Shown one piece after another: positions 9,419 to 41,584 of a DNA stretch of 64,000 nucleotides. The position numbers and the translations under genes were made by a program. Position 1 is the first letter of the stretch; every line of letters starts with the position of its first letter. Origin of the DNA: an uncultured Pelagibacteraceae bacterium (GTDB lineage: Bacteria; Pseudomonadota; Alphaproteobacteria; Pelagibacterales; Pelagibacteraceae). The notes under the pieces are model-generated. The model ran no database searches. It was not told the DNA's origin and saw nothing but the letters and a program-made list of their open reading frames with translations. The DNA lies in assembly GCA_902570425.1 (NCBI GenBank), contig CACFYB010000002.1, positions 1-64,000 of the forward strand. The letters are read 5' to 3'.

Positions 9419-10459
9419 TTAATGATTAATCGATGATGAAAAATTCCAAGAACAATCAAAGCTAGGCACATAAACCCTAGATAATTTAGTATTGCCAAAA
9501 TGATGATGAAAAACATTTAGCCAATTTTCAACTTGATGGGGTTTTTTATCTTGACTGCCTACTTGTGCCGTTATCACCCCTTTTGGTTTAAGAATTCGAA
9601 CTAATGAGTCCATATTTTTTGCTGCAAGATCTATGCAAAATTGATCATCATTTAAATCAACAAATATATGATCATATGTATCATCTTTAATAGATTTTAT
9701 ACTTTCAAAAGCATCACCCCAAACACATTTCACAGAGTTTTTCTCAGTTGCCTTTTTTCCAATATCGCCAAGATGTTTGTTGCAAACTTCAACTACCTCT
9801 GGATCAAGTTCAAACCAATCAATAAAATTAAATCTTTTAGATATACATTCTCTTGCAACACCCCCATCTCCTCCTCCAATAATCGCAGCTCTGTCATTAG
9901 AATTATTTAATTTTAATCCAGCCCCTACAAATGTAGAACTGTATAAATGTTCATCTGATGCAGCTACTTGAATTTCTCCATCAATAAACAAAGATTTTCC
10001 AAATTGTTCTAAATCTAAAATTTCAATATGTTGGCCAACTTTTGATTTAAAATCTTCAAGAACATCATTTACTACATATGATTTTTGTAAACCAGGAGAA
10101 CTATAAATATCGTGATATAAAGATTTTGTATCTCTATTAAATTCTTTTTTAACTATTCTCTTATGTTTGAATTCTTTTTTAATTATATCGATCGCAACAG
10201 AAGGATTTATTTTTCCACAAGTAAAAAAATCAAAACTTATTATACCTTTTTCAGGAAAAGTATGAAAACTTATATGGCTTTCAGCCAACAATGCCAGAAT
10301 TGTAAAACCTTGTGGCTCAAACTTATATTTTGATATATCTAAAATAGTAACTTTTGCAGCTTCAGCAATTTCTTTTATTACTTTTTCAAAAACTGAAGGA
10401 TCATATTCTTTATCAGTCCCAATTATATCTAAAGTAATGTGCTCCCCAACTTTTGTCAT
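9419..10459 (-). CDS. speDE: Fused AdoMet decarboxylase and spermidine synthase-like protein
   Basis: A fusion of 346 residues. Residues 1-120 form a prokaryotic SpeD: the LAESHISFHTFPE motif gives the Glu-60/Ser-61 autocleavage site that makes the pyruvoyl cofactor, with a Cys in the FFTCG processing region. Residues about 125-346 form an aminopropyltransferase with the decarboxylated-AdoMet loop IIGGGDGGVARE. Canonical spermidine synthases have DSTDPxGPA; here the segment is DLNDDQFC, so the amine acceptor may differ from putrescine. The products are an aminopropylated amine plus methylthioadenosine, which the upstream genes of the same operon process. It is the last gene of a five-gene minus-strand operon, 1 base after the aldolase gene. 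Confidence 0.9.
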   Translation of the reverse strand: MTKVGEHITLDIIGTDKEYDPSVFEKVIKEIAEAAKVTILDISKYKFEPQGFTILALLAESHISFHTFPEKGIISFDFFTCGKINPSVAIDIIKKEFKHKRIVKKEFNRDTKSLYHDIYSSPGLQKSYVVNDVLEDFKSKVGQHIEILDLEQFGKSLFIDGEIQVAASDEHLYSSTFVGAGLKLNNSNDRAAIIGGGDGGVARECISKRFNFIDWFELDPEVVEVCNKHLGDIGKKATEKNSVKCVWGDAFESIKSIKDDTYDHIFVDLNDDQFCIDLAAKNMDSLVRILKPKGVITAQVGSQDKKPHQVENWLNVFHHHFGNTKLSRVYVPSFDCSWNFSSSINH

Positions 10460-10460
10460 C

Positions 10461-11117
10461 TTAGCCTTTTTTATAATCTTTAGCTTTGTACAAAACTTTT
10501 TTCATTTCTTCAAATGAAAGAATTTTTGGTTCTCCTAACTTTAGTGTAATAGTGTATTGATGACAAATATTTTCTATCTCTTGGGCAAGTTCAAAGGCTT
10601 GGTCTAAATTTTTTCCAAAAGCAACCTGACCGTGATTAGACATTAAGCAAGCGCTTCTTTCGTTTAGAGCTTTAATAATATTTTTAGAGAGCTCTTCAGT
10701 TCCAAAAGTAGCATATTCAGCGCATTTAATGTCCTCTCCTCCAGCAAGTGCAATCATATAATGAAAAGGTGGTATTGTTTTTCCATAGGCAGATACAGCT
10801 GTTGCGTGTGGAGAATGGGCATGAACAATGGCATTTGCTTCTTTCTTGTTTAAATAGATATCTCGGTGAAATCTCCATTCAGATGAAGGTTTATTAGCTG
10901 ATTCGTTTTTATTTGCCTCATCATTTAATCCCATAAAAACAATATCTTTTGGTTTTAATGTTTCATATTTTTTTCCAGAGGGCGTAATTAAATATCCTTC
11001 CTTATCATCTTCGTTCGTTCTTATTGATATATTACCTGATCTAAGCGGTGAAAGATTTGTAGAATTAAGTTTTAAAGAATATTCAATAATCTTATTTCTT
11101 TTATCTAAGCTTTTCAT
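10461..11117 (-). CDS. Class II aldolase, FucA-like; probable methylthioribulose-1-phosphate aldolase
   Basis: A cytoplasmic zinc enzyme of 218 residues. It has the L-fuculose-1-phosphate aldolase residues: Glu-80 in SSEWRFH, His-99 and His-101 in VHAHSPH, and His-162 in NHGQV, plus LITPSG and AEYATFGTEELS typical of FucA. MtnB dehydratase belongs to the same superfamily, but the residue pattern here is FucA/Ald2-like. Between mtnA and speDE, its best role is cleaving methylthioribulose-1-phosphate (or 5-deoxyribulose-1-phosphate) to DHAP and an aldehyde, as in the DHAP shunt. No mtnC, mtnD or mtnK lies nearby. Overlaps mtnA by 4 bases. Family call is strong; substrate is inferred from context. 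Confidence 0.85.
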   Translation of the reverse strand: MKSLDKRNKIIEYSLKLNSTNLSPLRSGNISIRTNEDDKEGYLITPSGKKYETLKPKDIVFMGLNDEANKNESANKPSSEWRFHRDIYLNKKEANAIVHAHSPHATAVSAYGKTIPPFHYMIALAGGEDIKCAEYATFGTEELSKNIIKALNERSACLMSNHGQVAFGKNLDQAFELAQEIENICHQYTITLKLGEPKILSFEEMKKVLYKAKDYKKG

Positions 11118-40597: not shown

Positions 40598-40777
40598 TTA
40601 TTTGTTAAAACAATTATTTACAAGAATTGCCATTAATATCCAAATCACAAAAGTTTCTCCGTGTGAAAATGTATAATCAGCTCCAGCAAATCCAGCAACA
40701 ATGTTTATTCCATAGATAATTATTGTAGATATTATTAAACTTATAATTAAATTTATAAGACCACTTACATATTTCAT
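40598..40777 (-). CDS. Very small two-helix membrane protein
   Basis: An open frame of 59 residues read directly from the minus strand, starting at ATG 40777 and ending TAA 3 bases beyond the end of the convergent dioxygenase gene. It has two hydrophobic helices (LINLIISLIISTIIIYGINIVAG and ETFVIWILMAILVNN) joined by an acidic turn (ADYTFSHGE). Composition and codon use match the surrounding genes, and the frame fills the whole interval, so I think it is real. I recognise no family. Confidence 0.5.
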   Translation of the reverse strand: MKYVSGLINLIISLIISTIIIYGINIVAGFAGADYTFSHGETFVIWILMAILVNNCFNK

Positions 40778-40873
40778 ATTTAAACAATATAGATATTAAA
40801 TCTTAATGCAATTTTAAAATTTCTATTATTAATTGAAGTTTTTTTTAGATGTGCGAATGATATTAAATAGGTG

Positions 40874-40930
40874 GGTTGTATTCAAGAAATATATTTTAAT
40901 GATATTGAAATAAATTTATTGAATACAACC
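40874..40930. repeat. Inverted repeat, 12-bp arms
   Basis: GGTTGTATTCAA (40874-40885) and TTGAATACAACC (40919-40930) are exact complements with a 33-base AT-rich spacer. It could form a hairpin in RNA or be a two-site protein-binding region. Confidence 0.7.
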
Positions 40931-41071
40931 TATCAAAAATTTATCTTTTTATTAGGAGGTAGTTTAAATGAATCTAATGCCACCTGACACTTAGCTGGGT
41001 AGCTTAATACTTCATAAAAACGAATACAATAAACTTAAAGTCCAATTGGACTTAAATGCCAAAGAGGCAAC

Positions 41072-41117
41072 TTAGGGGAACCCTTTTGGTTGGAGAACAA
41101 AAGGGTGAACCCCCTAA
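41072..41117. repeat. Nested hairpin at the end of the cytochrome c' gene
   Basis: The outer arms TTAGGGG (41072-41078) and CCCCTAA (41111-41117) enclose the inner arms CCCTTTTG (41081-41088) and CAAAAGGG (41098-41105) with a loop containing GGA. It lies directly downstream of the cytochrome c' stop on the minus strand, without a T run, so a terminator call is weak; an RNA element is possible. Confidence 0.65.
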
Positions 41118-41122
41118 ATTAT

Positions 41123-41584
41123 TTAATGTTCTTCTCTAAAACGTTGATGGCACGATTTACAATTACTCCACATAAATTTTCTAATAGTGCCTCCTATATC
41201 ATCTGTTCCTTCAATAACTTTGGTTAATTTGATCATATCATTTGAGGATTTTATCATTAAATCGTTAAATTCCTTTTTATTCTCCCAGATTGTTGGAAGA
41301 GCCTCTGTTTTAAAACCTTCCTTTGAATTTTCAGGAAAATATTTAATCAAAATTTTATAATTTTCACTCATTTCTAACATTAAAGTTTTTGCCTTATCAA
41401 ACTCACCTTTGTTAGCTAAAGTTTGAACTCTTTTAGCTGTACTGTAATTTTTACTAAACAATGCTTTTCTTCCTTTAATTACCTCTTCAACTGAAAGTTC
41501 AGAATTAGCAGGAAGCGACAAAATGACGAAAGTAGAAATAAACAAAATATACTTAAAGATTAAAATGATATATTTTGTAAACAT
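41123..41584 (-). CDS. Cytochrome c'-family protein
   Basis: A protein of 153 residues with a hydrophobic signal (IILIFKYILFISTFVILSLPANS) followed by a four-helix-bundle body. A single haem-binding motif CKSCH lies near the C-terminus (SNCKSCHQRFREEH), as in cytochromes c'. It is periplasmic, binding haem covalently. Members bind NO or CO, or carry electrons. Its start codon abuts the start of the divergent b561 gene with no base between (CATATG), so promoter and ribosome site for each must lie in the other gene. Partners are probably functional. Confidence 0.85.
   Translation of the reverse strand: MFTKYIILIFKYILFISTFVILSLPANSELSVEEVIKGRKALFSKNYSTAKRVQTLANKGEFDKAKTLMLEMSENYKILIKYFPENSKEGFKTEALPTIWENKKEFNDLMIKSSNDMIKLTKVIEGTDDIGGTIRKFMWSNCKSCHQRFREEH

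Follow-up and report, generated by a model that had tools for sequence, protein, structure and literature searches.

What occupies a structured gap of 345 nt in the genome of a SAR11 bacterium? Few cells on Earth are as numerous as those of SAR11, which ranks among the most abundant bacteria of the ocean, and the cited literature gives the median intergenic region (IGR) of HTCC1062 as 3 nt. The gap lies in the window analysed here, a stretch of 64,000 nt from an uncultured Pelagibacteraceae bacterium (contig CACFYB010000002.1, positions 1 to 64,000). Among the ORFs of the window, it is flanked upstream by a small ORF of 59 amino acids (40598-40777, minus strand), and downstream by a convergent cytochrome c' gene (PF01322; 41123-41584, minus strand), which is context and lies outside the RNA described below. 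The 59-amino acid ORF has no Pfam match and neighbours the RNA in many loci (cluster c3). A first-pass annotation of this DNA had listed stem and palindrome elements, an AGGAGG with an eight-codon frame and a structured gap of 345 bases, and had proposed a possible sRNA with a mini-ORF. Direct reading found all of these elements in place, with the AGGAGG at 40954-40959, and the gap of the size claimed, and the sRNA proposal is supported by covariation, a conserved frame, a -10-like box and a convergent downstream gene.

Structure and ends of the intergenic RNA

The RNA gene of about 245 nt spans 40874-41117 of the plus strand. The minimum free energy of 40865-41125 was -78.9 kcal/mol, against a mean of -46.8 for shuffled sequences (z = -7.4), and none of 200 shuffles folded as low. 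The opposite strand of the same interval gave z = -7.2; since both strands fold far below their shuffles, the strand was chosen by the ORF and not by folding energy. At the 5′ end, hairpin H1 (40874-40930) has 27-nt arms that are 89% complementary, with the 12-bp inverted repeat GGTTGTATTCAA/TTGAATACAACC as its outer part (arms 40874-40885/40919-40930). The 3′ portion contains H2 (41038-41053; AAGTCC-AATT-GGACTT), which is the 16-nt palindrome AAGTCCAATTGGACTT; H3 (41057-41069; GCC-AAAGA-GGC), whose loop is of the GNRA type in subclade III relatives and whose counterpart in locus L251 is GACCGAAAGGUC; and H4 (41074-41115), which consists of a lower stem GGGG/CCCC, an asymmetric internal loop and an upper stem ACCCUUUU/AAAAGGGU, the nested stem being read at 41075-41113.

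Covariation, which the first-pass annotation had named as the check on this structure, was strong. Among 40 divergent aligned members, 93.5% of cells were paired and 18 of the 28 base pairs showed compensatory double changes. Double-changed cells numbered 97, compared with 25 in shuffles and 6-23 when partners were slid by 1-3 columns, in an alignment that was fitted to the covariance model and hence leans towards the modelled structure. By helix, such changes affected all six pairs of H2, three of the four pairs of H3 and eight of the 12 pairs of H4, where 94-99% of cells were paired. When RNAalifold was run on an alignment made independently with MAFFT, it again gave H3, H4 and a helix formed by the Shine-Dalgarno (SD) sequence, with double changes in eight pairs, all of them in H3 or H4. 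At least 10 of the 12 outer pairs of H1 were retained in 57 of 78 copies. On this comparative basis we regard H2, H3 and both parts of H4 as well supported. A pairing of GAATACAA (41022-41029) with the left arm of H1 was absent from the other lineages read and was treated as chance.

A -10-like box, TATTAA (40861-40866), precedes the invariant 5′ motif GGTTGTATTCAA (40874-40885), the left arm of H1. In 61 distinct upstream sequences, a T and an A are invariant 13 and 12 nt ahead of the motif and A occupies positions -9 to -7 in 87-90%, the box reading TANNAA across the genus. Its spacing fits a -10 box for transcription starting at, or close to, the first G of GGTTGTATTCAA, and the transcript probably begins there (GGUUGUAUUC); no consensus -35 was found. 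GGTTGTATTCAA was unchanged in 74 of 78 aligned copies, and it was intact in 10 of the 11 copies in which the right arm has drifted and only eight of the 12 pairs are left. At the other end, no U-tract terminator was found on the plus strand in the window, nor is one conserved across the family: a U-rich tail (at least five T in the 8 nt after H4) was present in 11 of 32 members. The RNA does not show the intrinsic terminator with a U-tail that marks an Hfq-type sRNA.

A mini-ORF ending in Pro-Pro-Asp/Glu-Thr

Between H1 and H2 lies a strong SD sequence, AGGAGGT (40954-40960), whose GGAGG is conserved across genera, followed by an in-frame ATG and a mini-ORF of eight codons, MNLMPPDT* (40968-40994). 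All 61 distinct SD-to-stop versions have an in-frame ATG 3-11 nt past GGAGG and no internal stop, although these are related sequences and hence not 61 independent trials. The ATG stands at 4-12 nt from GGAGG in 56 of them, always in frame with the conserved end, and at 3 nt (GGAGGTTTATG), likewise in frame, in the remaining five; an out-of-frame ATG at 4-12 nt spacing occurred in none of the 61. The SD-to-stop distance ranges from 31 to 43 nt and the ORF from five to nine codons, encoding at least 29 peptide versions; with the initiating Met included, these have 6-9 amino acids.

The peptides share a C-terminus, (P)P-D/E-T/I-stop, in the form of PPDT, of PPET or PPEI in subclade III-type relatives, and of LPDT in one clade. 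The N-terminus is free (MNQM-, MLILS-, MLKLT-, MSKLT-, MQNKT-, MS-). Codons are exchanged within the conserved end (CCA/CCG for the first proline, CCT/CCA for the second, GAC/GAT for Asp or GAA for Glu, ACT/ACA for Thr), and TAG, TAA and TGA all occur as stop codons. Frame, start and SD are thus conserved with synonymous or conservative replacements, as in translated small ORFs, and, judged from these alignments, the genera together show the pattern expected if the frame is translated.

Ribosome profiling in E. coli places PPD only among the pausing PPX motifs, and PPE is found in the table of EF-P-dependent pauses (PMC4140641). Nearly all ORF versions contain PPD or PPE and hence a strong-pausing PPX motif; the D-to-E replacement leaves the motif in the pausing class. 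We infer that ribosomes may also pause at PPD/PPE in SAR11. Of 30 genomes, some carrying the RNA and some lacking it, 29 contained efp, and no phylogenetic link between EF-P and the RNA was seen.

RNAalifold pairs the SD with the CC-N-CCT proline codons. This predicted helix is kept with almost no double changes, containing two invariant pairs and showing G-U changes in one clade, and we take it as no more than suggestive. Conservation of the CC-N-CCU codons may serve this pairing instead of proline, and one clade has UUG-CCU, in which pairing is kept as G-U and Pro is changed to Leu. In most of 33 members the SD was predicted to be paired, either with upstream pyrimidines or with the proline codons. 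A hairpin right after the stop codon is clear in subclade III-type relatives, in L249 and in the HTCC1062 group and weak in other lineages (mean z -0.5), and we make no family-wide claim for it. At the subclade III-type loci L251, L253, L254, L255, L284 and L267, a strong hairpin is formed from the Thr and stop codons onwards, its sequence varying with the pairing kept.

Distribution, context and novelty

A blastn search with 281 nt gave matches in 115 of 201 Pelagibacter genomes. The gapped DNA pattern GGAGG...CCNCCTGAYACTTAGCTG was found in at least 118 genome contigs, the titles listed being Pelagibacteraceae, Pelagibacterales or Pelagibacter; it had no match in viral contigs, and a phage origin was rejected on this ground. 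In an order sample of 149 near-complete genomes, covariance model R1 identified the RNA in 77, with one copy in each, and in a family sample it found the RNA in 50 of 102 genomes. Other genera were also reached, namely g12, g4 and, with model R2, g9. Genus g12 includes a complete genome of 1,284,727 bp, which we take to be that of IMCC9063. Its locus L284 reads MSPPET* (E 2.1e-17), and L267 reads MSPPEI* (E 1.4e-10); both had been left out of building R2. Over 181 alphaproteobacterial genomes, R2 gave weak matches only (E 0.05-1), and the five that were read had no ORF.

The source genome and nearly every other genome carry a single copy, which argues against a repeat or mobile element; a second match in some genomes was the antisense of the same place. 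Within Pelagibacter the distribution is patchy, with 20 near-complete genomes (G243, G251, G280, G290, G301 and 15 others) yielding no copy in a sensitive covariance search. In G112 the copy (L250, 1991-2137, minus strand) has decayed, with H4-like stems remaining and neither an in-frame ATG nor GGTTGTATTCAA, which suggests that this lineage lost the RNA recently. The R1 match at 69007 of G209 seems to fall within a coding region (L256) and was taken as a false positive, the true copy of that genome being at 162059.

Almost all of the loci checked have a convergent downstream gene whose end is no more than about 25 nt from H4, and the families of this gene are unrelated (cytochrome c', methyltransferase, SSS symporter, FolD, aminotransferase). 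At L253 and L284, both of subclade III, no ORF of at least 50 amino acids lies that close downstream; the convergent gene at L284 may be shorter than 50 amino acids and so fall below the ORF cut-off. A downstream gene that is convergent and changes in this way indicates a stand-alone RNA and not a leader or riboswitch. In several subclade III-type loci the next gene resembles, by eye, folD (methylenetetrahydrofolate dehydrogenase). The short contig with the g4 copy also carries a glycine riboswitch aptamer (L249, 2349-2435).

Neither the interval nor its relatives had a match at gathering score in Rfam 15; the best permissive matches were microRNA models on H1 (E about 0.04), far below gathering scores. 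A tRNA or tmRNA identity was rejected, as neither ARAGORN nor the Rfam tmRNA models matched the interval. A single-contig genome of 1,308,759 bp, presumably Ca. P. ubique HTCC1062, carries the element at 762690-762860 (minus strand). This position coincides with an HTCC1062 IGR, 762678-763012, listed by Meyer et al. (2009) in their Table 1 between SAR11_0785 (plus) and qacH (minus); no RNA was assigned to it, and its 76 BLAST hits were below the cut-off of 200 used in that screen (PMC2704228). We found no description of the RNA in the searchable literature, a scope that leaves aside subscription papers and supplements, including those of ocean small-RNA metatranscriptomes, and it may have been detected earlier as an anonymous transcript. 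The gene appears to be absent from current annotation. Taking structure, frame and distribution together, we conclude that the gap almost certainly holds an authentic RNA gene of a new family, conserved in the Pelagibacteraceae and with an ORF under selection.

Possible modes of action

An RNA of about 245 nt that has survived genome streamlining, both in subclade I and in genera of the subclade III type, probably matters to the cell, and a mini-ORF conserved only at Pro-Pro-Asp/Glu-Thr-stop suggests an RNA switch that is read by the ribosome and acts in trans. Building on the observed structure, ORF conservation, stand-alone context and distribution, we infer the following working, in which start site, translation, pausing and target are putative. 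The RNA gene would be transcribed independently, with the SD held in alternative helices by upstream pyrimidines or by the two proline codons. A loading ribosome would disrupt the SD/proline-codon helix, read a handful of codons, slow down at Pro-Pro-Asp/Glu and terminate two codons after the pause, just ahead of the 3′ hairpins. Its presence or absence on this segment would set the fold, the lifetime or the interaction surface of the RNA, a surface that in Pelagibacter would include the invariant 5′ GGUUGUAUUCAA. The RNA might in this way report the state of translation in trans, be it initiation capacity or EF-P-dependent proline elongation. That it is a small RNA acting in trans, its state set by ribosome loading and by pausing at PPD/PPE, is our preferred reading, which we put forward as tentative but quite possible. 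More doubtful is the bolder form, in which stand-alone RNAs of this kind make up a class of direct translation sensors specific to the lineage, the PPD/PPE pause in an ORF of five to nine codons switching a structured RNA that then acts in trans. If true, an ocean bacterium with a streamlined genome and few regulatory proteins would possess a sensor of ribosome or EF-P state made of RNA. The cultured strains HTCC1062, HTCC7211 and IMCC9063 appear to carry the RNA, the HTCC7211 copy lying near 673876-674110 (minus strand), which opens it to direct testing.

Other readings place the weight elsewhere. The RNA could be a classical base-pairing sRNA with GGUUGUAUUCAA as its 5′ seed. Ribosomes on the mini-ORF would then do no more than control how stable or accessible the RNA is, and PPD pausing would play no part. 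Such an sRNA would fit a 5′ motif that lies just downstream of the -10-like box and does not change even in copies that have lost the arm it pairs with, as well as the conserved 3′ hairpins. However, the exact 11-nt complement of the motif was no commoner than the reversed control in 24 genomes, a comparison of exact 11-mers that lends no support to a seed target of this length. Also, the U-tail of the Hfq type is not conserved, and subclade III-type relatives keep the ORF, whereas the 5′ motif was not seen there; a seed-based sRNA is thus conceivable, if doubtful. Emphasis on the peptide leads to an mRNA for a functional micropeptide, M-x-PP-D/E-T, acting in trans as proposed for peTrpL. The conserved C-terminus, with its synonymous and D/E replacements, agrees with this, but five to nine residues are very few, the N-terminal half is free to vary in both sequence and length, and the majority of the conserved bases belong to hairpins that lie beyond the ORF, all of which makes a micropeptide improbable. 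A ribosome-sequestering or hibernation-type RNA, on which an unusually full SD (AAGGAGGU), a pause-type motif and a very short, abortive ORF would hold ribosomes on a stable molecule, strikes us as similarly improbable, given its single copy and the prediction that most members have a masked SD.

The two remaining readings take up options named by the first-pass annotation, and the loci speak against both. A bidirectional terminator array, or a 3′-UTR of the convergent gene with a coincidental ORF, would account for the strong stem of H4 and for an RNA whose 3′ end is, at most loci, about 25 nt or less from the stop codon of the convergent gene. Most members, however, have no plus-strand U-tract after this last hairpin, and the in-frame ORF of all 61 versions and the conserved promoter-like box are left unexplained; as a main function the two-sided terminator array did not hold up, and we consider it very unlikely. 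In its succession of SD, short ORF and downstream hairpins, the RNA resembles a leader peptide system of the usual, cis-acting kind. Yet at virtually every locus the neighbour that follows is convergent and its family differs from locus to locus, no conserved co-directional gene lies immediately downstream, and only PP-D/E-T is conserved, with no cognate codon run as in an amino-acid attenuator. These neighbours contradict a cis-acting leader or attenuator for the downstream gene, to which we give hardly any credence.

Several known systems resemble the RNA in part. The SAR11 RNAs of Meyer et al. (2009; rpsB, rpsL, ffh, SAM-V and the SAR11_0636 element, among others) are structured intergenic RNAs of the same organisms, and separate transcription has likewise been suggested for the SAR11_0636 element, but none is described there with a PPDT mini-ORF (PMC2704228). 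Like tmRNA, which is two-piece and permuted in SAR11, the RNA is structured and encodes a short peptide; unlike it, its mini-ORF has its own SD and ATG, and the SAR11 tmRNA lies elsewhere (10302-10518 in HTCC1062). Dual-function sRNAs (SgrS/SgrT, VcdRP, RNAIII) and Pos19 of the alphaproteobacterium Rhodobacter sphaeroides, reported as a small coding RNA of 219 nt (PMC5036791), are likewise stand-alone, with their own promoter-like sequence and a short ORF. They have no sequence or Rfam family in common with the SAR11 RNA, and their ORFs are longer (29 amino acids for VcdP) and encode functional proteins, whereas that of the SAR11 RNA has five to nine codons with the last three or four conserved. 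With rnTrpL/peTrpL of Sinorhizobium meliloti, an attenuator RNA with a leader peptide that acts in trans, the RNA shares a very short ORF within a structured molecule, on whose fate a translating ribosome can have a bearing, but it is a single stand-alone gene, does not lie upstream of a biosynthetic operon and has PPD/PPE in place of a cognate codon run. EF-P/polyproline-sensitive upstream ORFs of the mgtA leader type also place a short proline-pause ORF in a structured RNA, through which a gene is controlled in cis; the SAR11 RNA has the same kind of proline-based pause motif, but its downstream gene is convergent.
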